Part shown: piece after piece, positions 18,566 to 34,368 of the stretch
Layout: every line of letters begins with the position of its first letter
Numbering within the stretch: the stretch's first letter is position 1
Assembly (NCBI GenBank): GCA_013791765.1
Contig: VMTC01000016.1
Location: 1-36,334 of the forward strand
DNA from: Rhodoferax sp.
Lineage (GTDB): Bacteria > Pseudomonadota > Gammaproteobacteria > Burkholderiales > Burkholderiaceae_C
DNA: 36,334 nucleotides
Reading direction: 5' to 3'
Translations under genes and position numbers: made by a program
The notes under the pieces: model-generated
The model's input: only the letters and a program-made list of their open reading frames with translations
Told to the model about the DNA's origin: nothing
Database searches by the model: none

Positions 18566-20053
18566 TCAGGTGCCCAACATTTGCACGACCGCGTTGGAGC
18601 ACAAAGTCATCAGGCCGCCAGGCAACAGACCCAAGCCCAAAACCAGCGCACCATTCAGTGACAACACAGCCCGAACATCGAACGGTGCCGACACGGTGCC
18701 TGCCCCCACAGGCTTGTCAAAGTACATCACTTTAACCACGCGCAGGTAATAGAAAGCACCAATCAGCGACATCATGACGGCGAAAACCGCTAAACCAATG
18801 TGAAACACACTGCCCGAAGCAACCAGCGCCTGCAACACAGCGAGCTTGGCATAGAAGCCAACCATCGGTGGAATACCGGCCAACGAGAACAGGCACACTG
18901 CCATCACGCCTGCATAGAGCGGACTGCGTTCGTTCAAGCCAGCCAAATCAGCGATCTCTTCGCTCTCAAAACCGTCCCTGGCGAGCAGAAGGATCACGCC
19001 AAAACTGGCCAGCGTCGTCAACACATAGGTAATGACATAGAACATCGACGAGCCGTAGGCGTCCGCGGCATAGTGAATGTCACCGTTGACCATGCCCGAC
19101 ATCAAACCAATCAGCACAAAACCCATGTGTGAAATCGTGGAATACGCCAGCATGCGCTTGAGGTTGGTCTGTGCAATGGCCGCCAGGTTACCAATCAGCA
19201 AGGAGCCAACGGACAGCACCATCAACATCTGTTGCCAGTCAATGGCCAGTGGCAACATACCTTCCACCAGCAGCCGAATGCAAATGGCAAATGCTGCCAG
19301 CTTGGGGGCGCCAGCAATAAGCAATGTAACGGCCGTTGGCGCGCCTTGGTAGACATCAGGAACCCACATATGAAATGGCACAGCACCGAGCTTGAAGGCC
19401 AGGCCGGACACTACAAACACCAAGCCAAACACCAACACCTGATGCTTGATTTGCCCTGAATTAATGGCTCTGAACACCGCATTCACATCGAGCGACCCGG
19501 TGGCACCATAAATCATTGACAAGCCATATAGCAGGAAACCCGATGCCAGCGCGCCCAGGACAAAATACTTCATGGCAGCCTCAGTGGAGTCCGCATGGTC
19601 TCTCCGTAGCGCAACCAGCGCGTAGCTCGCGAGCGTCAGCAGTTCCAGCCCCAAATAGATCACCAGAAAATTATTGCCGGAGATCATCACAAATATCCCC
19701 AGCAGGCCAAACATGCTCAAAGAGAACATTTCTCCACCGCGAAGCATGTCCCGATCAGCCGCATAGGGACGGCCGTAGACCAAGGTCACCATCACGGCAA
19801 TCGCAGCAAAGCACTTGAGCCAGTTGCCCATGGGGTCGCTGACCACCATGTTATTAAAGCCATAAACGGTCGCACCACCCACGGCGTAACTCGCCTGCAA
19901 CGCTGCCACAATGGCCAGTGTCAAAAGGGACAGCACATAGGTCTGCGTGCGCCTGGGACTTTTCACGCCAAGATCGGCCAGCGTGATGACGCAGGCCATG
20001 ATAAGCAGGATGATTTCAGGGTAAACCGAAATCCAACTGAGTTTGTCGATCAT
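18566..20053 (-). CDS. nuoN: NADH-quinone oxidoreductase subunit N
   Basis: The product (495 aa) is one of the three antiporter-like membrane subunits of complex I that carry out proton translocation. About 14 hydrophobic helices are visible. Family segments include [20 protein letters not shown] and [20 protein letters not shown]. The start [18 protein letters not shown] follows the nuoM stop by 38 bases. It is the last gene of the nuo operon. About 133 bases without other features follow before the Nudix gene, and no clear terminator is seen, so read-through is possible. Confidence 0.97.
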
Positions 20054-20091
20054 GTTCTATCTCTTAATTCAATTTGGTCTATTCAGACTGA

Positions 20092-21567
20092 TCAGATCAG
20101 CTTGGAGTTCGCTACGTGCCTGAGCAATTCGATCACCGACGTATCCATCACATCAGTAAAGGGCTTCGGATAGATGCCCATATACAACACCGCGACTGCC
20201 AATAGTGTCAGCATGAAGAATTCGCGTCCGTTGATGTCTTTCAGGGCCTGAACGTGCTTGTTGGCGACAGGGCCCAGGTAGACGCGCTTGAACATCCACA
20301 AGGTATAAGCGGCACCGAAAATAAGTGCGCTGGCAGCGCCAACACCAATCCAGAAGTTGGCCTTCACAGCACCCAGAATCACCATCCACTCGCCGACAAA
20401 ACCGGCAGTTCCCGGTAGGCCGCAATTGGCCATGGCAAACAGCAAGGCAAATGCCGTGAACTTGGGCATGGTGTTGACAACGCCACCGTAGCTGGCAATT
20501 TCGCGTGAGTGAACACGGTCATACAGCACCCCAATAGACAGGAACATAGCGGCTGACACGAATCCGTGTGCAATCATCTGCACCAAGCCACCAGACACGC
20601 CCAAGTCATTGAAGATGAAAAAACCCAAGGTGACAAACCCCATGTGGGCAACAGACGAATAAGCGACCAGCTTTTTCATATCCTTCTGGACCAGCGCTAC
20701 CAGACCCACATAAATGACAGCAATCAGCGACAAAGCGATCATCAACCAGGCCCACTCCCGCGCGGCATCCGGCGCAATCGGCATTGAAAACCGCAAAAAG
20801 CCGTAGGCGCCCAGTTTGAGCATGATGGCGGCCAGCACCGCCGAACCAGCAGTAGGCGCCTCGACGTGCACATCAGGTAACCACGTATGGACTGGCCACA
20901 TCGGCACCTTCACCGCGAAAGCCGAAAGAAACGCGAAGAATAATAAGGTCTGGGCCGTGCCGCCCAAAGGAAGTTGGTACCACACACCCAGGTCGAAACT
21001 GCCACCCGACTGGGTATACAGGTAGATCAGGGCAATCAGCATTAGCAGTGAGCCGAGCAAGGTATACAGGAAAAATTTGAACGCTGCGTAGATCTTGTTC
21101 GGGCCTCCCCAGATACCAATGATCAGATACATCGGAATCAAAGTCGCCTCAAAGAACACATAGAACAGCATGCCGTCAAGCGCACAGAACACGCCAATCA
21201 TCAAGCCGCTCAAAATAAGAAAGGCCCCCATGTACTGGTTGACCCGCCGGGTAATAGCTTCCCAACTGGCAATGATGACCACCACGTTGATGAAAGCCGT
21301 CAAAAGTACAAGCCAGAGTGAAATTCCATCTATACCAAGGTGGTAGTTGATGTTGAAGCGTTCAATCCAGGGCGCCTTCTCAACAAATTGCATGGCGGCT
21401 GTGCCAAGCTTGAAGCTTCCGTACAAAGGCAGGGTCACAAGAAAACTGACAATGGCACCAATCAGCGCGATCCAGCGCACAGTTCGCGCCTGATCATCCC
21501 GACCCAGTGCCAGCAGCACGACACCAAAAACAATCGGTGTCCAAATAGCCAGACTCAACAATCCCAT
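20092..21567 (-). CDS. nuoM: NADH-quinone oxidoreductase subunit M
   Basis: The product (491 aa) is an antiporter-like proton-translocating subunit of complex I. Conserved segments are WIERFNINYHLGIDGISLWL near the N-terminus, VPMWPVHTWLPDVHVEAPTA and KKLVAYSSVAHMGFVTLGF. It has about 14 membrane helices, a normal length and no interruptions. The ATG lies 13 bases after the nuoL stop, so translation is probably coupled. Confidence 0.97.
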   Translation of the reverse strand: MGLLSLAIWTPIVFGVVLLALGRDDQARTVRWIALIGAIVSFLVTLPLYGSFKLGTAAMQFVEKAPWIERFNINYHLGIDGISLWLVLLTAFINVVVIIASWEAITRRVNQYMGAFLILSGLMIGVFCALDGMLFYVFFEATLIPMYLIIGIWGGPNKIYAAFKFFLYTLLGSLLMLIALIYLYTQSGGSFDLGVWYQLPLGGTAQTLLFFAFLSAFAVKVPMWPVHTWLPDVHVEAPTAGSAVLAAIMLKLGAYGFLRFSMPIAPDAAREWAWLMIALSLIAVIYVGLVALVQKDMKKLVAYSSVAHMGFVTLGFFIFNDLGVSGGLVQMIAHGFVSAAMFLSIGVLYDRVHSREIASYGGVVNTMPKFTAFALLFAMANCGLPGTAGFVGEWMVILGAVKANFWIGVGAASALIFGAAYTLWMFKRVYLGPVANKHVQALKDINGREFFMLTLLAVAVLYMGIYPKPFTDVMDTSVIELLRHVANSKLI

Positions 21568-21580
21568 TTTTCTTATTCTC

Positions 21581-23596
21581 CTACTTGAGCCAGACGAAAT
21601 ACGTCAAAAGCACAAAAACACCCAAGATCATGACCAGCGCATAGTGGTACAGATAACCAGTTTGAACCTTCCGAATCACGCCGGATACCCAAGCGACACC
21701 CTTCCAGGAGCCATTAACAATGGCGCCGTCAATCAGGGCCTCGTCACCACCTTTCCACAAGCCGGTTCCCAATGCCCGCATACCGCGGGCCAAAATATTT
21801 TCATTGAACCAGTCAAGGTAATACTTGTTTTCAAGCAGCGCATAGATCGGCTGGACGCGAGTCTTGATGGCAGCGGGCAATGCAGGGTTAACCATGTACA
21901 TGTAATAGGAGGTTGCCACCCCTGCCACGGCAAGCCAGAACGGCAACGTTTGCAGTCCATGCAATGCCATCTGTAGCGGACCATGGAACGTCTGGGCCAG
22001 GTTTGCCATGGCGGCGTGTTTAGCCGCGTCGATAAAAATAGCGTCCTTGAAAAACTCTCCAAACAACATGGGCTGGATGGTCATGAATCCAATCACAACG
22101 GAAGGGATGGCGAGCAGGATCAGCGGCAGCGTCACAACCCAGGGTGACTCATGTGGGGCGTGATGTTCCTTGTGGTGTCCATGATGATCGCCATGGTGAG
22201 CGTCTGGATTTTGATCGAAGCGCTCCTTGCCATGGAATACTAAAAAATACATGCGGAAAGAATAGAACGCCGTTATAAACACACCAGCCATCACGGCAAA
22301 GGATGCAAAGCCAGCGCCGGGCAGCTGACTTTCGTGAACCGCCAAAATAATACTGTCTTTAGAGTAGAAACCCGCGAACAAGGGAGTTCCAATGAGTGCC
22401 AGAGAGCCTAATAACGTGGTGATCCACGTAATTGGCATGTACTTGCGTACGCCCCCCATCCAGCGGATGTCTTGATTGTGGTGCATACCCATAATGACCG
22501 AACCGGCCGCAAGGAACAGCAAGGCCTTGAAAAACGCGTGCGTCATCAAGTGAAACACAGCAACAGAATAGGCGGAAGCACCGAGAGCCACCGTCATGTA
22601 ACCCAATTGAGACAAAGTGGAGTAGGCTACGCCACGCTTGATATCGTTCTGGATGATGCCCATCAATCCCATGAACAAAGCGGTAATTGAACCAATCACA
22701 AGAACGAAGTTCAAAGCAGTGTCACTGAACTCAAACAAAGGTGACATACGCGCCACCATAAAAATACCAGCAGTGACCATCGTGGCCGCGTGAATCAAGG
22801 CCGAGATCGGAGTGGGGCCCTCCATGGAATCCGGCAGCCAAACGTGCAGCGGAAACTGGGCTGATTTACCCATGGCTCCAATAAACAGGCAAATGCAAAT
22901 AACCGTAATGAGCATCCAGTCTGTACCTGGAAAATTCAGTGTAGCAAGCTCACTCGCTTTGGCGAAAACTTCGGTGTAGTTCAAGGTATCGGCGAATGCA
23001 ACGACCAGCCCAATGCCAAGGATGAAACCGAAGTCACCCACGCGGTTGACCAGAAACGCCTTCATGTTCGCAAAAATGGCAGTGGGCTTGTTGAACCAGA
23101 AGCCAATCAGCAGATAGGACATGAGGCCCACGGCTTCCCAGCCAAAGAAGAGCTGCAACATGTTGTTGCTCATCACAAGCATCAGCATGGAAAAGGTAAA
23201 AAGTGAGATGTAGGCAAAGAAACGGTTATAGCCTTCGTCTTCTTTCATGTACCCAATGGTATAGATGTGAACCATCAAAGACACAAAAGTGACCACGCAC
23301 ATCATCATGGCGGTGAGACCATCGACGAGAAAGCCCACTTCCATTTTGAGACCACCCACCACCATCCACGTATAGATAGTTTCATTGAAACGAGCGCCGT
23401 CAATTGCAACACTCTTGAGTACCCAAGCGGAAAGCACAAATGACAGGAACACGCCCAGAATCGTAAGGGAGTGCGACAGGCGTCGACCAATCCAGTTGCC
23501 ACCAAACTTGGTCCCGAAAATACCAGCCAGAACTGCACCCACCAACGGAGCCAATGGCACCGCGAGAAGCGTCGAAGCGGAAAGGGTTTGACTCAT
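21581..23596 (-). CDS. nuoL: NADH-quinone oxidoreductase subunit L
   Basis: The product (671 aa) is the distal antiporter-like subunit of complex I, with a long lateral helix near the C-terminus. Signatures are FFGWEAVGLMSYLLIGFW, GKSAQFPLHVWLPDSMEGPT and IKRGVAYSTLSQLGYMTVAL. The start is the ATG at 23596 (MSQTLSASTLLAVPLAPLVG), four bases after the nuoK stop; a longer version from 23626 would overlap nuoK. A histidine-rich loop (HHGDHHGHHKEHHAPH, about residues 466-481) makes this protein longer than the E. coli version. Confidence 0.97.
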   Translation of the reverse strand: MSQTLSASTLLAVPLAPLVGAVLAGIFGTKFGGNWIGRRLSHSLTILGVFLSFVLSAWVLKSVAIDGARFNETIYTWMVVGGLKMEVGFLVDGLTAMMMCVVTFVSLMVHIYTIGYMKEDEGYNRFFAYISLFTFSMLMLVMSNNMLQLFFGWEAVGLMSYLLIGFWFNKPTAIFANMKAFLVNRVGDFGFILGIGLVVAFADTLNYTEVFAKASELATLNFPGTDWMLITVICICLFIGAMGKSAQFPLHVWLPDSMEGPTPISALIHAATMVTAGIFMVARMSPLFEFSDTALNFVLVIGSITALFMGLMGIIQNDIKRGVAYSTLSQLGYMTVALGASAYSVAVFHLMTHAFFKALLFLAAGSVIMGMHHNQDIRWMGGVRKYMPITWITTLLGSLALIGTPLFAGFYSKDSIILAVHESQLPGAGFASFAVMAGVFITAFYSFRMYFLVFHGKERFDQNPDAHHGDHHGHHKEHHAPHESPWVVTLPLILLAIPSVVIGFMTIQPMLFGEFFKDAIFIDAAKHAAMANLAQTFHGPLQMALHGLQTLPFWLAVAGVATSYYMYMVNPALPAAIKTRVQPIYALLENKYYLDWFNENILARGMRALGTGLWKGGDEALIDGAIVNGSWKGVAWVSGVIRKVQTGYLYHYALVMILGVFVLLTYFVWLK

Positions 23597-23600
23597 CTTA

Positions 23601-23909
23601 TTAACCCTTAAGCGTATTAAGTTCATCCACGTTGATGCTTGACTTGTTGCGGAACAACAGCACCAAAATGGCTAGACCAATTGCTGATTCAGCAGCAGCA
23701 ACAGTCAGGATAAAAAACACAAATATTTGCCCGTGCATGTCTCCCAAGTAGTAGGAGAAGGCGACAAAATTGGTATTGACGGCCAACAGCATCAGTTCGA
23801 TAGCCATCAACAAGACAATCAAATTCTTGCGATTGAGAAAAATACCAATCACTGACAGCGCAAACAAGATGGCGCCGAGCGACAGAAAATGTCCAAGAGT
23901 TAAAGTCAT
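23601..23909 (-). CDS. nuoK: NADH-quinone oxidoreductase subunit K
   Basis: The product (102 aa) is a small three-helix membrane subunit of complex I ([20 protein letters not shown]). Conserved glutamates lie in its second and third helices ([20 protein letters not shown] and [17 protein letters not shown]), as required for proton pumping. The start overlaps the nuoJ stop by four bases (ATGA), so translation is coupled. Confidence 0.97.
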
Positions 23910-24565
23910 TCTTTCTTCTCCGCATTCACGGCGCTTGCCGCTTCATCTAGCGCTGCCACCTTGGTCGAATCCATCTTGAGCACGACCATCCGATCCTTGG
24001 CTTTCACCCGTACTTGAGAGGAGGGGCTCAACTGCTTGCTGTCTTTGCGCTGGCGCAAGGTCAACGCAATAGCTGCAATCATCGCCACCAGGAGAATCGC
24101 TCCAGCAATTTGGAGTGGGTACACGTATTGGCTGTACAAAATTTTTCCCAGCTCACGTGTATTGGATAGCTCGATACCGGCCTGTCCAAGCGCGGCAGCG
24201 CTTTGCGGTTCATCAGTGGCGCGGAATCCTCCCATCAATACCGCCGCCATCTCCAGCGCGATCACGACGCCCACCACGGCTGCCAGCGGGAAATGCTTCC
24301 AAAAGCCTTCGCGCAAACCATCCACTTTGATGTCTAGCATCATCACAACGAACAGAAACAGCACCATCACAGCCCCGACATACACCAGAACCAGTGTGAT
24401 GGCCAAAAATTCGGCCTTGAGCAACAACCAAATGGCCGCTGCCTGAAAGAATGCCAGGACTAGGTACAAAACGGCATACACCGGATTGCGCGAGGTAATC
24501 ACTCGAAAGGCGGCGAAGAGCAGCACGATCGAGAAAAAATAAAAGAAGCCCGTCTTGACGTCCAT
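23906..24565 (-). CDS. nuoJ: NADH-quinone oxidoreductase subunit J
   Basis: The product (219 aa) is a five-helix membrane subunit of complex I. The conserved segment [20 protein letters not shown] is the helix that carries a pi-bulge in known structures. The hydrophilic C-terminal tail after about residue 165 is lysine- and alanine-rich and is probably variable among relatives. The gene is 52 bases after nuoI and shares four bases with nuoK. Confidence 0.96.
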
Positions 24566-24617
24566 GTGTCGTTACTTTTTTCCGGTGTTCAAAATATGAA
24601 AGCTGCTGATGCGGTCG

Positions 24618-25151
24618 TTATCGATATTTGGCATCTGCTGCCCTGGCTGCTGCAATCTGGGCTTCATAGCGGTCACCCACAGCCAGCAGCATGTCTTTTG
24701 TGAAATAGAGGTCGCTACGGGATTCACCGTGGTACTCGAGGATCGAGGTTTCCACAATCGAGTCTACGGGGCAGCTCTCTTCACAAAATCCGCAAAAGAT
24801 GCACTTATTCAAATCAATGTCGTAACGAGTAGTCCGCCGGGAGCCATCGGCGCGAATCTCTGATTCGATCGTGATCGCCATCGCCGGGCAAATGGCTTCG
24901 CACAGCTTGCAAGCGATACAACGTTCCTCGCCATTTTCATATCGGCGCAGCGCATGCAGGCCCCGAAATCTGGGCGACAGTGGCGTCTTTTCTTCAGGGT
25001 ATTCCAGCGTGATCTTGCTGCGAAACGCATACTTGCCAGTCAGCGCCAGGCCCTTGAATAACTCACCCAGCATGAAACTGGACAGGAAATCTTTCAACGA
25101 GAAGGAACTCTCGCTTTCGATTTCAACAGCACTTGAAGTAGGGGTAGACAT
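24618..25151 (-). CDS. nuoI: NADH-quinone oxidoreductase subunit I (two 4Fe-4S clusters)
   Basis: The product (177 aa) holds clusters N6a and N6b, which pass electrons toward N2 near the quinone site. Ligand sets are C78/C81/C84/C88 in [13 protein letters not shown] and C117/C120/C123/C127 in [14 protein letters not shown]. The start is the ATG at 25151 ([17 protein letters not shown]); a TTG six bases earlier is unlikely. It lies 12 bases after the nuoH stop. Confidence 0.97.
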
Positions 25152-25163
25152 AGACAACTCGAA

Positions 25164-26246
25164 TTACTTCCAAATGTTCCACGGGGTCTGCATCCATCCC
25201 CCAACAACCACCAGCCAGACCAGGGTGACCGGAATAAAAATCTTCCAACCCAAACGCATGATCTGGTCGTAGCGAAATCTCGGGAACGAAACCCGTACCC
25301 AGACAAACATTGTCACGACCAAAAACGACTTGAGTCCCAGCCAGATCCATCCTGGAATCCAATTAACGAAGACACTGTCGATAGGTGACAACCAGCCACC
25401 AAGAAACATGATCGTCGCCAAGACCGACACCAGCCAGATGTTCGCGTACTCTGCCATCTGGAACATTGCCCAGGACATCCCGGAGTATTCCACCATATGG
25501 CCAGCCACAATTTCAGACTCGCCTTCAATCACGTCAAAAGGAAGTCGATTGGTTTCCGCCAGACTGGAAATAAAGTAAATCACGAAAATGGGCAATAGCG
25601 GCAACCAGTTCCACGACAGGAAGTTAAGCCCCATGTCCGCAAAGTAACCTTTGCCCTGGCCTGTGACGATGTCCGTCATATTCAGACTGGCTGACACCAT
25701 CAGTACAACCACGAAGCAGAAGCCCATGGCAATCTCATAACTCACCATCTGGGATGATGCACGCAACGCACCAAGGAAAGGATACTTTGAATTGGACGAC
25801 CAGCCAGAGATAATCACGCCATACACCTCCATCGAGGTGATCGCCATCAGAAACAGCAAACCTGCGTTAATGTTTGCCAAGGCAATGTCCGGACCAAATG
25901 GAATCACAGCCCACGCCGCCATGGCAGGCATCACGGTCATGACCGGTCCCATATAAAACAGAAACTTTTCTGCAGCTGCTGGTCTGAGGACTTCCTTGCC
26001 CATCAGCTTCAGTGCATCCGCTATGGGCTGCAGCAGACCCCAAGGTCCAACCCGGTTTGGTCCCATACGAATTTGGGCCCATGCCAGCAACCGGCGTTCC
26101 CACAGCGTCGTGTATGTCACAGCGCCCATAACGAGCATCAAGACCAGCGTCACCTTGATCAAAGCCCAAATCACCGGCCATGCAATGGCCGACCACCAAG
26201 GAGCTGCCAGCAGCCCCTCCCCCAACGCGAAAATGGTATCGATCAT
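25164..26246 (-). CDS. nuoH: NADH-quinone oxidoreductase subunit H
   Basis: The product (360 aa) is the membrane subunit that forms the floor of the quinone chamber and joins the peripheral and membrane arms. The hallmark segment [20 protein letters not shown] is present, as are [20 protein letters not shown] and eight or so membrane helices. Its start overlaps the nuoG stop (ATGA). A perfect GGAGGTGA ribosome-binding site lies inside the end of nuoG, so this subunit can be strongly translated. Confidence 0.97.
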
Positions 26247-28378
26247 GCTGTCACCTCCGTCGCCACAACATGTGGTTTAGCGTCTGCCGTCAGTTGCAGG
26301 CTCGCAGCTCGACGCACAATCCCATCCAGCGCATAAATGCCGACAGCGGCCGGTGCTGCGGAGGCGGGCGTGAGGTCAAAAACAGCCTGCGTTTTATTGC
26401 TCAACGTGGCACTCGACAAAAATGACTCGCCTTCAACCGGCAAGCCCGGTACGCGCTTGAGCACCTCCTGCGACGATTCGAAGCTGAAATCGGGGATCCC
26501 AAGCAGGTTGCCAAGCACACGCAAGACTTTCCAGGCAGGGCGGGTTTCGCCCAGCGGCTTGACCACCGCATGAAAACCCTGAACCAAGCCCTCGGCATTG
26601 ACAAAGGTTCCCGATGTTTCGGTGAACGGTGCAATCGGCAGCAGGACGTCACTGAAAGCCATATTGGCTTTGAACGGACTGAGCGTGACCACCATCTCGG
26701 CTTTTGACAGAGCGGTCAAAGCCAATGCACCCGGCGCTGAATCAAACTCGGGTTCGTTGTTCAACAGAAACACGGACTTCAGATCACCGCGGAGCATTTG
26801 CCCTGCATTCAGACCCTTAGGCCCAGGCAGAGCCCCCGCAATTTGTGCGCCCACGGTGTTGGCCGCCTCCGTCAAGTAACCGACGGTGGCGCCTGTCTGT
26901 GTGCCAATCCAGTTAGCGAGCGCCAACAAGCTCGAAGCCTGTTCGTGATGGGCCGCCGCATTGCCCAACAAAATTGATTTGCGTTCACCACCGAGCAAAG
27001 ACTGCGCGATGGCTTTGGCTACGGCGTCAGCCTTGCCGGGAACTGGCGGCTCAACGCCATTATGGTCTGCCACCGCAAAGGCCACGTCTGCGAGCGCCTG
27101 CGCCCAGGTACGGGCGTCGCGGAGCAGCGCATTGGCCACAGGCATCGCCCAGTCTTGCGCGTTAGACACAATAGCATTTACAACACAACCCTTGCGGGCC
27201 GCCTGGCGAATTCGTTGGGCAAACAAGGGGTGATCCTTGCGCAGGCTGGAACCCACCACCAACACACGCTGCAGTTCAGACAAGGACGCTATAGAAGTAC
27301 CCAAATGACGCACGCCTTCAGACGCAGGGAACTCGGCGTTACGCAAACGATAGTCGACGTTCTCGCTGCCCAGGCCACGCATCAGGGCGCCAGCCAGAAA
27401 TAACTCTTCTAAGGTGCTGTGCGGGCTAACCAAGGCGCCAATAGTCTGCGCGCCGTGTTCTGCCTTGATCTGTTTCAGGCCATTGGCAACATACTCTAGT
27501 GCGGTCTGCCAATCGACGGAATTCCAAACACCGCCCTGCTTGAGCATGGGCGTGGTCAGACGCTCATCGCTGTCCAGAGCTTCGTAGGAGAAACGGTCAC
27601 GGTCTGCAATCCAGCATTCATTAACTGCCTCGTTCTCGAAAGGTACGACGCGCATGACCTTGTTGCTCTTGACCTGTACAACCAAGTTGGCGCCAGTGGA
27701 GTCATGCGGGCTGACAGACTTGCGGCGCGACAATTCCCAAGTGCGGGCACTGTAGCGAAACGGCTTGCTGGTCAGGGCTCCCACCGGGCAAATGTCAATC
27801 ATGTTGCCGGAAAGTTCCGATTCGATCGAATGGCCGATAAACGTCTCGATCTCGGCGTGCTCGCCGCGATGCGACATACCCAACTCCATGACGCCTGCCA
27901 CCTCTTGGCCGAATCGAACGCATCGGGTGCAATGAATACATCGGCTCATTTCCTGCATGGAAATCAAGGGGCCTACATCTTTGACGGCCACAACACGTTT
28001 TTCTTCTTCGTAACGTGAAGAAGAGGCGCCATAACCTACGGCCAGATCCTGCAACTGGCACTCGCCGCCCTGGTCGCAAATAGGGCAATCCAGCGGATGA
28101 TTGATCAGCAGGAATTCCATCACCGACTTCTGCGCCTTGATTGCCTTCTCGCTTTTGGTCCGGACAATCATGCCTTGCGACACTTGCGTAGCGCAGGCGG
28201 GCATGGGCTTGGGCATCTTCTCTACATCCACCAGGCACATGCGGCAACTAGCCGCGATGCTGAGCTTCTTGTGGTAACAAAAATGCGGTATGAAGGTGCC
28301 TGCCTTTTCGGCTGCATGCATGATCATGCTGCCTTCAACAATGTCTATCTTCTTGCCGTCGAGTTCAATTTCAATCAT
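26243..28378 (-). CDS. nuoG: NADH-quinone oxidoreductase subunit G
   Basis: The product (711 aa) is the large iron-sulfur subunit of the NADH-oxidising arm. Ligands visible are C34/C45/C48/C62 for the 2Fe-2S cluster N1b; H94/C98/C101/C107 ([14 protein letters not shown]) for N5; and C147/C150/C153/C197 for N4. The extra CxxCxxxC site of cluster N7, found in E. coli and Thermus, is absent: residues 221-230 read [10 protein letters not shown], as in mitochondrial 75-kDa subunits. The remainder is the molybdopterin-oxidoreductase-like domain without cofactor function. The ATG lies 12 bases after the nuoF stop. Confidence 0.97.
26251..26258 (-). promoter_or_regulatory. Strong ribosome-binding site for nuoH
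   Basis: GGAGGTGA on the minus strand, four bases before the nuoH ATG (seven after the GGAGG core), lies inside the final codons of nuoG. It is the strongest Shine-Dalgarno I saw in the operon. Confidence 0.7.
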
Positions 28379-28390
28379 CTTGGGACTCGC

Positions 28391-29764
28391 TCAGACGTAG
28401 GCTGGGACCATGCAGGTCTTGTGCTCTACGTGGTATTCAAATTCAGGGCGGAAATGTTTGATCATGGCGCGCACGGGCATGGCTGCAGCCTCTCCCAGGG
28501 CACAAATGGTGCGCCCCATGATGTCTTCAGCGACGCTGTCCAGCAAGTCCATGTCTGTGGGACGACCCTGACCATGTTCGATCCGGTCAACCACGCGCGA
28601 CAGCCAACCTGTGCCCTCGCGACAAGGCGTGCACTGCCCACACGACTCATGCATATAAAAATAACTCAAACGCTGCAAGCTCTTGACCATGCAACGGCTG
28701 TCATCAAGCACAATCACGGCGCCAGAGCCAAGCATCGAACCTGCCTTTGCGATCGAGTCGTAGTCCATCGTACAGTCCATCATGATGCTGCCAGGCAAAA
28801 TTGGCGATGAGGACCCACCAGGAATAACAGCCTTGAGTTGGCGCCCCTTGCGCACACCGCCGGCAAGCTCAAGCAATTGGGAAAACGGCGTTCCCATCGG
28901 GACTTCGTAATTACCGGGTAGCTCCACGTCTCCACTCATGGAAAATATTTTGGTGCCCCCATTGTTGGGCTTACCGCACGCCAGATATGCCAGCCCGCCA
29001 TTGCGGATGATCCACGGCACCGCCGCGAAAGTTTCCGTGTTGTTTATCGTGGTGGGTTTTCCGTACAGACCAAAACTGGCCGGGAATGGTGGCTTGTAGC
29101 GGGGCTGCCCTTTTTTTCCTTCAAGCGACTCCAGCAAAGCGGTCTCTTCGCCGCAAATATAGGCGCCATAACCATGCGCAGCATGCAACTGAAAGCTGTA
29201 AGTCGTGCCCAGAATATTGTTGCCAAGAAAACCGGCCGCCCGTGCCTCTTCCAGGGCCTCTTCAAAACGTTGGTAGGTCTTGAATATTTCGCCATGAATG
29301 TAGTTGTAGCCTACGGAAATGCCCATCGCGTAGGCTGCAATGATCATGCCTTCAATCACCATATGGGGATTGAATTGCAGTATTTCCCGGTCCTTGCAAG
29401 TGCCTGGCTCGCCCTCGTCCGAGTTGCAGACAAGATACTTTTGCCCGGCATACTGACGCGGCATGAAACTCCATTTAAGCCCGGTCGGAAAACCGGCTCC
29501 GCCACGCCCGCGCAAGCCTGACTCCTTGACAGTTGCAATCACTTGGTCCGGCGTCATACCAGCAGCAGCGCCATCAGCAGCCAAGCCACCGTCTAGGCCG
29601 AGTATCTTTCGTAGCGCCTGATAACCACCACGCGATTCGTAGTCTTTCAAATGCCAATTCGAGCCATTCAAATCCGCATAGATTTGGGGATTGATATGCC
29701 GCCCATGAAAACCAGTCTGAACACCGGTCGCCTGAAATTGGGAGAGTATTTTGTCAGCCAACAT
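28391..29764 (-). CDS. nuoF: NADH-quinone oxidoreductase subunit F (NADH/FMN site)
   Basis: The product (457 aa) binds NADH and FMN and starts electron transfer in complex I. The dinucleotide-binding glycine loop is [18 protein letters not shown] (about 83-100), and FMN-site segments such as [15 protein letters not shown] follow. Cluster N3 ligands are C375/C378/C381 ([14 protein letters not shown]) and C421 (TICALGEA). Its ATG shares one base with the nuoE stop (TAATG), which couples the two peripheral subunits. Confidence 0.97.
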
Positions 29765-30252
29765 TACATGTCCCCCGCGGCACGCAAACCATCGACCAGT
29801 TGATCGAGTTTGTCATCACTCATGAAACTGCACATGGTCTGGTCATTCACCAATAGCACAGGTGAGTCAGCGCAAGCGCCAAGACATTCACATTGCTGCA
29901 AGGTAAACATGCCGTCAGCCGTGGTCTCGCCCATTTTGATGTCCAACTTGTGTTCAAGATGCTTGAGGGCCTTTCCGCCATCGCGCAACTGGCAGGGCAA
30001 ATTGGTGCAAACATTCAACTTGTATTTTCCAACCGGCTGCTGGTTGTACATGTTGTAAAACGTTGTGACCTCGTGTACGGCCATCGGGGCCATACCCAGG
30101 AACTCGGCCACCTCGACTTCGCTGTCGGCGCTGACGTAACCGGCCTCCTGCTGAACAATCGCCAGACACGCCATGACGGCGGACTGTTTCTGGTCCTGCG
30201 GGTATTTAGCAACTTCTTGAGCGAAGCGCGCTTTTGATTCTTCGGAAATCAT
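29764..30252 (-). CDS. nuoE: NADH-quinone oxidoreductase subunit E (2Fe-2S)
   Basis: The product (162 aa) is the thioredoxin-like 24-kDa subunit with cluster N1a. Ligands are C82 and C87 (VCTNLPCQL) plus C123 and C127 ([11 protein letters not shown]). The ATG overlaps the nuoD stop (ATGA), and GGGGAAG in the end of nuoD can serve as ribosome-binding site. Confidence 0.97.
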
Positions 30253-31502
30253 CGATCAACTTCCCCAAACACAATATCCAACGAACCAATAATGGCAACC
30301 GCATCGCCAATCATGTGGCCTTTTCCCATTTCACCGAGCGCGGCCAGATGAGCAAAGGCCGGTGGACGAATCTTCATGCGGTAAGGCTTATTGGCGCCAT
30401 CACTGACCATGTATATCCCGAATTCTCCTTTCGGATGCTCAATGGTCGCGTAGGCCTCGCCTTCGGGCACAGAAAAGCCCTCTGTAAATAGCTTGAAGTG
30501 GTGAATCAACTCTTCCATATTGGATTTCATGGACTCACGGTTTGGCGGCGCGATCTTGTGGTTATCGGTGATGACCGGACCGGGATTGACGCGCAGCCAA
30601 TCGATACACTGTTTGATGATGCGGTTCGACTGCTTCATCTCCTCCATGCGCACCAGGTAGCGGTCGTAACAGTCGCCCGTCACGCCTACCGGAATATCAA
30701 AATCAAGCTGGTCATATATCTCATACGGCTGCTTCTTGCGCAAGTCCCAGGCGATCCCGGAACCGCGCAACATCGGGCCACTAAACCCAAGATTAAGCGC
30801 GCGCTCGGCAGTAACGACGCCAACACCGACTGTGCGCTGCTTCCAGATGCGGTTGTCCGTCAACAAGGTGTGATATTCACCCAAATAGGTCGGAAAGCGC
30901 TGGGTAAAGTCTTCTATGAAATCCAGCAGGCTGCCGTCGCGAGCGCGATTGAGCCTTTCAGTGGACTTGGCGCTTCTGATCTTATTGGGCTGATGCCGCG
31001 CCATGGTGTCGGGCAAATCGCGATAGACGCCGCCCGGCCGAAAATAGGCCGCATGCATGCGTGCACCACTGACCGCCTCATACATGTCCAACAGGTCTTC
31101 GCGCTCGCGAAAGGCATACAGCATGACCGTCATCGCGCCGCAGTCCAGGGCGCCGGCGCCCACAGCCAACAAATGGTTGAGTAGACGGGTAATCTCGGCA
31201 AACATGACGCGGATGTACTTGGCGCGGGTGGGAACTTCCAGCCCCAACATCTTTTCAATCGCCAGACAGTACGCACTTTCATTGCACATCATCGACATGT
31301 AGTCGAGACGATCCATGTACGGCAAGGCCTGGATATAGGTCTTGGTCTCAGCGAGCTTCTCAGTGGCTCGATGCAACAACCCAATATGCGGGTCGGCGCG
31401 TTGGATCACTTCGCCATCAAGCTCCAACACCAGACGCAACACGCCATGCGCTGCCGGATGTTGCGGGCCAAAATTTAGGGTGTAGTTTTTTATTTCAGCC
31501 AT
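30249..31502 (-). CDS. nuoD: NADH-quinone oxidoreductase subunit D
   Basis: The product (417 aa) is the 49-kDa subunit that lines the quinone pocket with NuoB. I start at the ATG 31502 ([20 protein letters not shown]), the normal family start; an open frame back to 31628 reads into nuoC and is not protein-like. Conserved features are [34 protein letters not shown] and the C-terminal [13 protein letters not shown]. It lies seven bases after nuoC. NuoC and NuoD are separate here, not fused as in E. coli. Confidence 0.97.
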
Positions 31503-31509
31503 AAAAAGC

Positions 31510-32118
31510 CTAGTGCAAGCCTCCGTAGTTGTCTTCACGGATGATGCGCGGTGTAATTTCGCGGGGTTCAATCGAAACAGGTTGATAAACGACGCGCTTG
31601 AGCTCGGAGTCATAGCGCATCTCGACATGACCTGAAACTGGAAAATCCTTGCGGAACGGATGTCCGATGAAACCGTAATCGGTCAGGATTCGACGCAAAT
31701 CACTGTGGCCTTCGAAGACAATGCCGAACAGGTCAAAAGCCTCTCGCTCGAACCAGTTCGCAGAACTCCACAAATCACACAGGGACTGCACCACCGGCAG
31801 ACTGTCATCGGGCGCAAATACCTTCAGGCGCACGCGCTGATTCAGACTCACCGACAAAAGGTGAGACACCACACAAAAACGCAATCCAGCTTGAGGCTGA
31901 TCCTTGTAGGTCGAGTAATCAACGCCGCACAAGTCCATCAGTTGCTCGAACCTACAGCTGGGGTCGTTTCGCAGTATCTGTGCGGCTTGCAAATAATGGG
32001 CACTGTCTACGACGATGGTCAGCTCACCCAGTCGAAGGACGCTGCTAATGAGCAGGTCGCCCAATGCAGTTTCAACATTGATTTTGGTGGTTTCGGGATT
32101 CACAGCGAAAGAAGTCAT
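31510..32118 (-). CDS. nuoC: NADH-quinone oxidoreductase subunit C
   Basis: The product (202 aa) is the 30-kDa subunit of the peripheral arm. The family signature is [20 protein letters not shown] followed by [18 protein letters not shown] start at the ATG 32118 ([20 protein letters not shown]), ten bases after the nuoB stop; the open frame further upstream overlaps nuoB and is not protein-like. Confidence 0.96.
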
Positions 32119-32128
32119 CACCAGGCCC

Positions 32129-32608
32129 TTATGCGCGTGCAATGGTTTGCGTGCGGCGAATCTTGTGCTGCAGCTGAATGATGCCGTACAGAAGCGCTTC
32201 CGCCGTGGGAGGACAGCCCGGCACATAAACGTCCACGGGAACAATGCGATCACAACCGCGCACCACCGAATAGCTGTAGTGGTAATAGCCGCCGCCATTG
32301 GCACACGAGCCCATGGAAATCACGCGGCGCGGCTCGCTCATTTGGTCATAGACCTTCCGAAAAGCAGGCGCCATCTTGTTGCACAATGTGCCCGCCACAA
32401 TGATCAAGTCAGCCTGCCGCGGGCTGGCGCGAAACACTTCGGCCCCGAAACGACTGATGTCATAACGGGCGTTCGCCGCATGCATCATTTCGACCGCACA
32501 ACAAGCCAAGCCAAAAGACATGGGCCACATCGATCCTGTCTTAGCCCAGTTCATCACCGAGTCGTAACTGGTGGTGATAAAGCCTTCTTTTAATATGCCT
32601 TCAATCAT
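32129..32608 (-). CDS. nuoB: NADH-quinone oxidoreductase subunit B (cluster N2)
   Basis: The product (159 aa) carries the terminal 4Fe-4S cluster N2 that reduces quinone. Ligands are the tandem C36/C37 ([12 protein letters not shown]), C102 ([14 protein letters not shown]) and C132 ([12 protein letters not shown]). The start is the ATG 32608 ([18 protein letters not shown]); GGGAG at 32616-32620 lies seven bases before it, inside the last codons of nuoA. Confidence 0.97.
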
Positions 32609-32612
32609 CGCA

Positions 32613-32972
32613 TCACTCCCAGTCAAGGGCTCCCTTTTTCCACTCGTAAATAAACCCAACGACGAGAATGGCCAAGAACACCATGACTGACCAGAAACCA
32701 AGCGCACCAATATCTTTCAGCGCTACCGCCCAAGGAAACAGAAAGGCAATTTCGAGATCAAACAAAATGAACAGAATGGCAACCAAGTAGTAACGCACAT
32801 CAAACTTCATCCGGGCGTCGCCGAAGGCTTCGAAACCGCATTCGTAAGGCGAGTTCTTTGCAGCATCAGGGCGATTGGGTCCGAGAATGTACCCAATGAT
32901 TTGTGGCGCGACACCGACACCGATGCCAACCAGAATGAACAAAAAGATAGGCAGGTATTGATCAAGACTCAT
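32613..32972 (-). CDS. nuoA: NADH-quinone oxidoreductase subunit A
   Basis: The product (119 aa) is a three-helix membrane subunit of complex I and the first gene of the operon. Signatures are [20 protein letters not shown] and [16 protein letters not shown] start at the ATG 32972 ([16 protein letters not shown]), the usual N-terminus. There is no Shine-Dalgarno on the coding strand before it (the leader reads CTCCTTTT). This fits either poor initiation or a leaderless transcript from the predicted start two bases upstream. A frame back to 33026 is open but would cross the regulatory site. Confidence 0.96.
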
Positions 32973-32980
32973 AAAAGGAG

Positions 32981-32986
32981 ATTGTG
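32981..32986 (-). promoter_or_regulatory. Possible -10 box of the nuo promoter
   Basis: CACAAT on the minus strand matches TATAAT at four of six positions. It is placed so that a start at 32974 puts the FNR-type palindrome centre at exactly -41.5, the class II activator position. No -35 box is present, as expected for an activator-dependent promoter. Confidence 0.4.
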
Positions 32987-33008
32987 TTCCAAGTATTGGC
33001 TTGCTGCA

Positions 33009-33022
33009 TTGATCCACATCAA
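33009..33022 (-). promoter_or_regulatory. Perfect FNR/Anr-type binding site upstream of nuoA
   Basis: TTGATGTGGATCAA is a perfect TTGAT-N4-ATCAA palindrome, the consensus for oxygen- or NO-sensing FNR/Anr/Dnr regulators. It lies between the tRNA-Leu 3' end and nuoA, centred 43.5 bases before the start codon. It suggests oxygen-dependent control of complex I; whether this is activation or repression cannot be read directly. Confidence 0.65.
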
Positions 33023-33033
33023 GCATGTTTATT

Positions 33034-33118
33034 TGGTGCCGTCGGCGAGACTCGAACTCGCAAAGCTTTCGCCACTACCACCTCAAGATAGCGTGTCTAC
33101 CAATTTCACCACGACGGC
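33034..33118 (-). tRNA. tRNA-Leu (anticodon GAG)
   Basis: An 85-base tRNA that includes an encoded CCA end. The acceptor stem GCCGTCG pairs with CGACGGC, followed by A and CCA. The anticodon stem CTATC/GGTAG holds the loop TTGAGGT with GAG at the anticodon. The long variable arm (TGGCGAAAGCTTTGC) is typical of leucine tRNAs, and the T loop contains GTTCGAGTC. It reads CUC and CUU. It lies between secG and nuoA on the same strand, a conserved arrangement in this group. Confidence 0.95.
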
Positions 33119-33126
33119 TCTTTTGT

Positions 33127-33169
33127 GTCTGGACTGCACAAAAAGTAATGTGCTTTTAGCCCTCCAGAC
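33127..33169 (-). other. Nested stem-loop between secG and tRNA-Leu
   Basis: GTCTGGA (33127-33133) pairs with TCCAGAC (33163-33169), and inside it GCACA (33136-33140) pairs with TGTGC (33149-33153). A competing stem AGCCCT/AGGGCT (33158-33175) overlaps one arm. It may be a processing or termination structure between secG and the tRNA; on the minus strand no T run follows. Confidence 0.35.
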
Positions 33170-33231
33170 AGGGCTGTAGTCTACCCTTAATTCCAGCAAA
33201 TTTTGACCACAGACTCCAATTTCAACGGCGT

Positions 33232-33585
33232 TTATTTCGAAGGAATTTGGGCTGCGCCAGACGCTGGGACCACTGGCGCAGCGGCGACCGGAACGGGGAC
33301 TGAAACAGCAGCGCCGTCAAGCACGCTTCCCGAACTCGCGGTCGGACGCACGGTGCCGAAATAGGCAAGCATCAAGGTACAAACAAAGAAGATCGTAGCC
33401 AGGACAGCCGTGGTGCGAGACAAAAAATTCGCGCTGCCGCTGGCACCAAACAAGCTGCCTGAACCGCCGCTGCCGAACGCTGCGCCCATGTCGGCGCCCT
33501 TGCCATGCTGCACCAGGATCAAACCGACCATGGCCACCGCAGAAATCATCTGAACCGCGAGAAGAATAGTTAACAAAGCGCTCAT
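33232..33585 (-). CDS. secG: Preprotein translocase subunit SecG
   Basis: The product (117 aa) is a small two-helix membrane subunit of the SecYEG export channel. The N-terminal helix ([20 protein letters not shown]) leads into the conserved loop [20 protein letters not shown] and [20 protein letters not shown], then the second helix. The C-terminal tail is rich in A, P and V, which is variable in this family. It follows tpiA by 39 bases, as in many proteobacteria. Confidence 0.95.
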
Positions 33586-33624
33586 CGAATACTCCTAAAT
33601 ATATGTAGTGACCTCTGCTTGAAA

Positions 33625-34368
33625 TCAGCAGGCAGAGGCAATGATGGATAAAAAGTCAGCGACCTTGAGCGCGGCGCCGCCCACCAGGCCGCCATCAATG
33701 TCGGGCTGAGCCAGCAAATCCGCAGAATTCGCCGCGTTCATGCTGCCGCCATAAATAATGGGAATACGACCAGCCTGGTTTGAGGCCGCCTGCAACTGTT
33801 GGCGCAGCACCGCATGCACCTGCTGTGCTTGCTCAACACTGGCGGTCTTGCCAGTGCCGATAGCCCACACGGGTTCGTAGGCCACAACCACCTCGCTGAT
33901 GCAATGACCATTGGCATGAATTACGGCCGCCAATTGGCGTTTGACTACTTCTTCCGTCCGGCCTGCTTCACGCTCAGCCAGCGTCTCGCCGACACACACA
34001 ACGGGCGTCATGCCGCAGGCCAGCGCCCGCTGCGCTTTCGCTGCAACGAGCGCATCAGTCTCAAAGTGGTACTGGCGACGCTCAGAATGACCAACAATGC
34101 AATAGCGCACACCGAATTCCTGCAGCATGGCACCCGAAATTTCACCGGTGAAGGCGCCTATCTCGTATTGGGACAAATCCTGCGCACCCAATGCCATGGT
34201 GCTGCCAGCCAGCAGCCCCTGGCATTGCGCCAAATAGACCGAGGGCACACACAGTGCCACCTGGCAGGCGGGCACACCCATCCCGGCCAGCAAGCCGTTG
34301 ACCAATGTCTCATTGGCAGCCAGGCTGCCATTCATTTTCCAGTTGCCCGCGATCAGCTTTTTTTTCAT
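33625..34368 (-). CDS. tpiA: Triosephosphate isomerase
   Basis: The product (247 aa) interconverts dihydroxyacetone phosphate and glyceraldehyde 3-phosphate in glycolysis. Active-site residues are K11 in AGNWKMNG, H94 in [11 protein letters not shown] and E165 in [12 protein letters not shown]; the phosphate-binding [11 protein letters not shown] is also present. I start at the ATG 34368 ([14 protein letters not shown]). It overlaps the quinone oxidoreductase stop by four bases (ATGA), which shows translational coupling. A longer frame to 34437 only overlaps that gene. Confidence 0.97.

Follow-up and report, generated by a model that had tools for sequence, protein, structure and literature searches.

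Complex I is usually viewed as an aerobic enzyme that Escherichia coli turns down without oxygen, and E. coli Fnr is held to repress the nuo operon. In the Rhodoferax sp. DNA considered here, the same operon carries a candidate FNR site at what would be an activating position. Among E. coli promoters directly activated by FNR and having a known start, 19 of 23 place the site at −41.5 ± 4 (according to the relevant passage of PMC3688515); the class II promoters narG, dmsA, nirB and nrfA have it at −41.5, as predicted for nuoA. Unlike in those four, the target here is complex I, the −10 element abuts the start codon, and both the start and a leaderless mRNA are predictions. For nuo, the passage concerned in PMC1805755 describes regulation by NarL and Fnr in E. 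coli and, in Yersinia, a nuo operon without a candidate Fnr, ArcA or NarP site. The sequence-only reading that preceded this analysis saw at nuoA a wiring different from that of E. coli; the contrast is fair, but FnrN/FixK sites upstream of nuoA-N had already been predicted by comparative genomics in Rhizobiales (PMC4999443). There, as here, an FNR-family box is assigned to the whole operon; unlike here, the species are Alphaproteobacteria, and the section in question does not give position, leader or tRNA context. FnrL-mediated nuo repression is reported in Dinoroseobacter shibae in an excerpt of PMC5398030, the operon nevertheless being up anaerobically, and a Shewanella EtrA (Fnr) table within PMC3078092 lists nuoB, nuoCD and nuoE at 0.35–0.44, a ratio that may run in either sense. 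Given these Rhizobiales, D. shibae and Shewanella reports, FNR-type oxygen control of nuo is not new as an idea. In the open full-text literature we found neither an FNR-activated nor a leaderless nuo in this genus, and no description there of a leaderless class II arrangement for this lineage.

Leaderless transcripts as such are described in a neighbouring case. In Burkholderia cenocepacia, 72 primary starts coincide with an annotated start and 42 lie no more than 10 nt from one; tRNAs account for 24 of these transcripts, and the leaderless ones have a TA-rich motif directly upstream (PMC4603805); this set resembles the leader predicted for nuoA, and nuo has 0 occurrences in the accessible text of that article. 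The nuoA 5′ end mapped in Cupriavidus metallidurans has the −10 string GTGAAATTGG with a low RpoD score of 5.1 (Table 2 of PMC9045368). The same string occurs in the tRNA-Leu of our window, the window being the whole stretch of 36,334 nt that was analysed; judged by this match, the C. metallidurans 5′ end seems to lie within tRNA-Leu, which counts against a start at the nuoA ATG.

On the minus strand of the window the order is tpiA, secG, tRNA-Leu(GAG), nuoA and then the remaining nuo-like ORFs, fourteen ORFs with the order and sizes expected for nuo genes spanning 32972 to 18566. We take the nuo, tpiA and secG names from gene order and sequence rather than from a family scan. The features used below are:

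33034..33118, minus strand: tRNA-Leu(GAG), directly upstream of nuoA, CCA encoded
32999..33024, minus strand: hairpin behind the tRNA, overlapping the left half-site of the box, with the right half-site in the loop; weak in the window (z −0.35 on 62 nt, −1.1 on 40 nt)
33009..33022, minus strand: FNR-type box TTGAT-GTGG-ATCAA, centre 33015.5, from sequence; TTGAY-N4-RTCAA in 38 of 80 readable genus upstreams
32981..32986, minus strand: −10-like CACAAT, last T 34.5 nt from the box centre, from sequence and spacing
32972..32974, minus strand: predicted transcription start, at 32974 by a 7-nt rule or at the A of the ATG at 32972, as suggested by spacing
32613..32972, minus strand: nuoA, which opens the nuo operon and lacks a Shine-Dalgarno
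18566..32972, minus strand: nuo operon, the presumed output, ORFs ordered as nuoA-N and named by order and sequence

The record NZ_JAAFHA010000022.1 (Rhodoferax sp. Bin2_7) is identical to the window in NuoA and in the 95 nt ahead of its gene. An Rfam search returned the tRNA alone, the second match (E 0.11) being far under its gathering score. In 76 of 80 genus genomes, 57–62 nt separate tRNA-Leu from the nuoA ATG, although this intervening sequence varies widely. An N-terminal extension of nuoA from an ATG at 33026 was considered and rejected: this upstream ATG precedes that of nuoA by 54 nt in the window and by 52 nt in relatives such as the one at our locus L045, where it is consequently out of frame.

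The 14-mer TTGATGTGGATCAA, read on the minus strand from 33022 to 33009, bears out the perfect FNR-type palindrome proposed between tRNA-Leu and nuoA, and all coordinates given for it hold. TTGAT-N4-ATCAA occurs once in the window against a mean of 0.03 in 100 dinucleotide shuffles. The window's own genome has 14 copies against 0 of a reversed control pattern, and 43 copies of TTGAYNNNNRTCAA against 7 of the reversed control. Many of the 42 boxes examined (all 43 except one on contig C124) fall within long ORFs, which is adverse to an FNR reading. One TTGAYNNNNRTCAA box stands 61.5 nt ahead of an ORF that by eye looks UspA-like (L306, C76:19760-21760 of the same genome), and others precede a CBS-domain-like ORF (L299, 40.5) and a phasin-like ORF (L009, 47.5).

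The −10-like CACAAT claimed ahead of nuoA is likewise present at 32981–32986, ending 8 nt before the ATG at 32972. A box centre at exactly −41.5 is right as arithmetic, 32974 being 7 nt below the hexamer, but it rests on that 7-nt rule; counting from the first base of the ATG instead gives 43.5. The −35 is poor (the hexamer at 17-bp spacing is ATGCAG), and no sigma-70 consensus promoter with a −35 was found in 32800–34000, as would be expected if an activator is needed. Across the genus, the last T of NANANT is 34.5 nt from the box centre in 29 of 38 nuoA boxes and 33.5 nt in 8; so loose a motif also turns up at other distances, namely 23.5 (15 of the 38 boxed rows), 19.5 (6 rows) and 40.5 (5 rows). 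The stricter YANANT, sought 5–9 nt ahead of the nuoA ATG, is present in 36 of 38 boxed rows vs 15 of 38 boxless ones, that is, in 51 of 76 genus rows (gap 6 nt in 41, 7 in 6 and 8 in 4), against a shuffled expectation of 4.7 of 76; eight control intervals farther upstream each contain it in 0 to 6 of 76 rows. Outside the genus set it precedes nuoA in 3 of 75 loci drawn from the best 80 nuoA loci. Of the 36 boxed rows with a −10, 26 have a gap of 6 nt to the ATG and 28 a box centre 41.5 nt before the A of the ATG, and for the majority of boxed relatives transcription is predicted to begin on the very A of the nuoA ATG. In the clade of four genomes that includes the window (G000, G076, G062, G090) the gap is 8, 2 nt longer, with box and −10 still 34.5 nt apart, and a group of eight rows with TACACT has a gap of 6 or 7 at a constant box distance of 33.5. 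Box and −10 change together in 2.5 vs 0.0 independent pairs, too few for significance. This spacing would put the transcription start at or near the nuoA ATG.

Whether the palindrome is kept in relatives was addressed with 89 genomes of the genus, 82 of them with a nuoA match; 81 upstreams were fetched and 80 were readable, G106 (no N-terminus) and G075 (no usable start) being left out. Tests on 76 rows further omit G009, G011, G020 and G063, whose upstreams are odd and none boxed, and all retention and −10 counts refer to related genomes, not independent events. TTGAY-N4-RTCAA is found at nuoA in 38 of the 80 and is absent from 42. On a tree built by a quick method from tpiA, secG and nuoABC (38 of 76 inner branches starred), the box occurs in 20 of 23 members of clade A, the window's own, in 1 of 18 of clade B and in 17 of 35 of clade C; its spacer is fixed as GTGG in clade A and takes eight forms in clade C. 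A neutral simulation from an ancestral box expects a mean of 5.4 boxes in A and 0.8 in C, and 0 of 1000 simulations reached the observed count in either clade. The right half-site alone, which the hairpin described below does not hold, gives P = 0.013 (A) and 0.009 (C). The simulation assumes a box at each clade root and a single rate for all columns, fitted to the rest of the intergenic region; this rate falls a little short in A (1.9 for 2.04) and overshoots a little in C (6.07 for 5.64).

A model-free count for clade C points the same way: among 45 positions of a sliding 5-4-5 mask, the one at the box yields the commonest 10-mer (17 rows, the next 11). In clade A the spacer is fixed and neighbouring masks tie at 20, so that A alone cannot separate a box from a conserved block. 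Column rates support constraint in clade A, with half-sites at 0.70 vs 2.04 for the rest and an equally quiet spacer (0.75). In clade C the half-sites change no less than the rest (6.0 vs 5.64), and over all 76 rows, half of them boxless, no constraint appears (12.1 vs 10.85). The sequence-only reading had named a palindrome not conserved in relatives as a refutation. Neither this check nor the one on the regulator, given below, refutes it, and the interpretation is supported in part: the box is kept above the neutral simulation in part of the genus, but is missing in 42 of 80 upstreams and in the other genera sampled. As far as sequence comparison can tell, the palindrome at nuoA is real and well placed, and appears to have been kept beyond drift in two clades.

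The box as a family-wide feature was rejected as far as sampled. A pattern of tRNA end, box and ATG, which is blind to any genus lacking a tRNA with the end GGCACCA ahead of nuoA, matched 4 of 399 genomes (5 from the genus and 394 from other genera of the family), and only the window's match is at nuoA, none of the 394 having one there; ARAGORN found no tRNA at the three other matches, two of which were inspected as sequence. Within 130 nt of nuoA, the box is found at 0 of 75 loci outside the genus set; these come from the best 80 nuoA loci, five being dropped as identical to genus rows, and one of the 75 (L134) is labelled Rhodoferax sp.

The absence of a Shine-Dalgarno, also noted beforehand, extends to the genus: Shine-Dalgarno 4-mers precede nuoA in 0 of 76 genomes, the window included, compared with 67/69 for secG, 55/73 for nuoB, 69/70 for nuoC and 10/67 for tpiA as control genes. 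A pairing energy of −5 kcal/mol or better is reached in 46 of 67 cases at tpiA and in 2 of 76 at nuoA. Outside the genus set the 4-mers are found in 10 of the 75 loci (again among the best 80), and since so few Shine-Dalgarnos are accompanied there by only three hexamers, a missing Shine-Dalgarno makes no case by itself.

An FNR-family regulator had been proposed as a check on the reading, and the genome does encode a canonical four-cysteine FNR (L015), with an N-terminal C-x2-C-x5-C, a fourth cysteine and ETVSR in its helix. With 242 bits it exceeds the NF008365 cut-off of 228, and the solved structure that it matches best bears the description FNR type regulator (9qll, 5cvr; E 6.4e-55). The helix has the form E-x-x-S-R, which presumably reads TTGAT. 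PF13545 has 16 matches in the same genome, 12 of them above cut-off. One other protein of this kind, L016 (C39:13510-14265), is an FNR paralogue that lacks the N-terminal cysteines and has the same ETVSR helix.

At E 1e-60, FNR is found in 76 of 89 genus genomes. It was not found in 11 of the 80 rows, seven of them boxless (G016, G011, G110, G096, G074, G105, G063) and four boxed (G103, G018, G104 and G089, with completeness of 89, 86, 75 and 90%). FNR, ccoN and the FNR-like paralogue were all not found in the boxed G103; its sister G105, 97% complete, has one mismatch in the box. That FNR loss explains box loss is unsupported, independent branch pairs going the same way in 0.7 and the opposite way in 0.8. 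Eight genomes (G016, G074, G110, G103, G105, G063, G075, G086), some incomplete, show neither FNR at this threshold nor ccoN, which suggests a joint loss of the low-oxygen branch; G071 and G009 have FNR and no ccoN match.

The textbook FNR target ccoN provides a yardstick within the genus. It has a match in 79 of 89 genomes, and in the window's genome fnr lies about 4 kb from it. Among the best 30 of the 79 loci (L268–L297), the start could be located in 25; the box is present in 18 of these, with the last T of the hexamer 34.5 nt from the centre in 18 of 18. A cruder first count gave a box in 19 of the same best 30; for 16 of these boxes the distance to the first Met is 62.5–65.5 nt. The cco (cbb3 oxidase) promoters thus share with nuoA the box code and the 34.5-nt distance, and at ccoN of G001 (L284) the 14-mer is identical to the window's nuoA box; unlike nuoA, the larger distance to the first Met would imply leadered mRNAs. 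Upstream of the window's own ccoN (L318, C76:24980-25330) there is no good FNR box, the best having two mismatches and no hexamer at 34.5.

We consider it probable that these elements make up a nuo promoter, particular to this genus, that is of FNR class II and nearly leaderless. The palindrome would be bound by FNR, an oxygen-labile iron-sulphur regulator, at the class II activating position, with 8 nt in the window, and 6 nt in 26 of 36 boxed rows, between the −10 and the nuoA ATG. When oxygen is low, FNR would occupy the box and, by contacting RNA polymerase, compensate for the poor −35; the 5′ end of the nuo mRNA would then lie at the ATG or no more than about 2 nt from it, and translation would proceed without a Shine-Dalgarno. 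FNR would in that case activate nuo rather than block it, and NO may also have a role at this promoter.

The same box could instead serve FNR as a roadblock or repressor, nuo being read through from secG or tRNA-Leu and stopped by FNR at low oxygen. The reported D. shibae repression and the Cupriavidus 5′ end apparently within tRNA-Leu fit such a scheme, as does the region between tRNA-Leu and nuoA, where a stem is present without a T run and no terminator-like match to an intrinsic terminator of tRNA-Leu was found. We nevertheless judge it unlikely, as it leaves unexplained both a −10 at a class II distance equal to that of ccoN and the hexamer's presence in nearly all boxed rows vs 15 of 38 boxless ones. 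The stem, overlooked by the sequence-only reading, raises another explanation, namely that the palindrome is a by-product of a hairpin following tRNA-Leu (serving processing, 3′-end protection or weak termination) and that no regulator binds it. In the window the hairpin runs from 33024 to 32999 with five pairs, a mismatch and four pairs, and it is an inverted repeat different from the box, their centres lying 4 nt apart. A stem with z ≤ −2 against mononucleotide shuffles follows the tRNA in 51 of 76 genus rows, boxed (24/38) and boxless (27/38) alike, and the left half-site lies within it, all of which this explanation would accommodate. It would not account for the right half-site, which all 38 boxed rows leave at least 4/5 unpaired and which is yet retained at the P values given above, nor for the poorer folding of boxed rows (median −9.7 vs −13.7 kcal/mol, the boxless hairpins being stronger) and the one stem pair that the box costs in the window; it also predicts no fixed −10 distance, and we hold it to be quite improbable. 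By eye, the clade C upstreams at L041, L051 and elsewhere often have an RTCAA-like half-site 8 nt past the right half-site, forming the 3′ arm of the hairpin.

A different protein of the CRP/FNR family might read the box, in which case the signal would not be oxygen. The cysteine-less paralogue L016 would be such a reader, having kept the ETVSR helix, although its 111.5 bits do not reach the Fnr cut-off of 228. Since only 32 of 89 genus genomes yielded it vs 76 for FNR, and 21 of the 38 boxed genomes did not, it makes a very improbable one. Returning to FNR activation from a near-leaderless promoter, one may speculate, with considerable doubt, that it forms half of a genus-specific switch: with oxygen, a leadered nuo mRNA would be read through from tRNA-Leu and its trailer hairpin; without oxygen, FNR bound in the same hairpin DNA would initiate a nuo mRNA that has no leader, perhaps blocking the read-through at the same time. 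In some lineages the box would then have been kept at the stem's expense, and in others surrendered for a strong hairpin.

If the class II reading is true, a single signal would govern the making of both complex I and the high-affinity oxidase in these bacteria, for life at oxygen's edge, and a 14-gene respiratory operon would be under an activator-dependent leaderless promoter. Such a promoter would allow the importance of leaderless translation at low oxygen to be tested cleanly. Sister species with and without the box are natural experiments within the genus.
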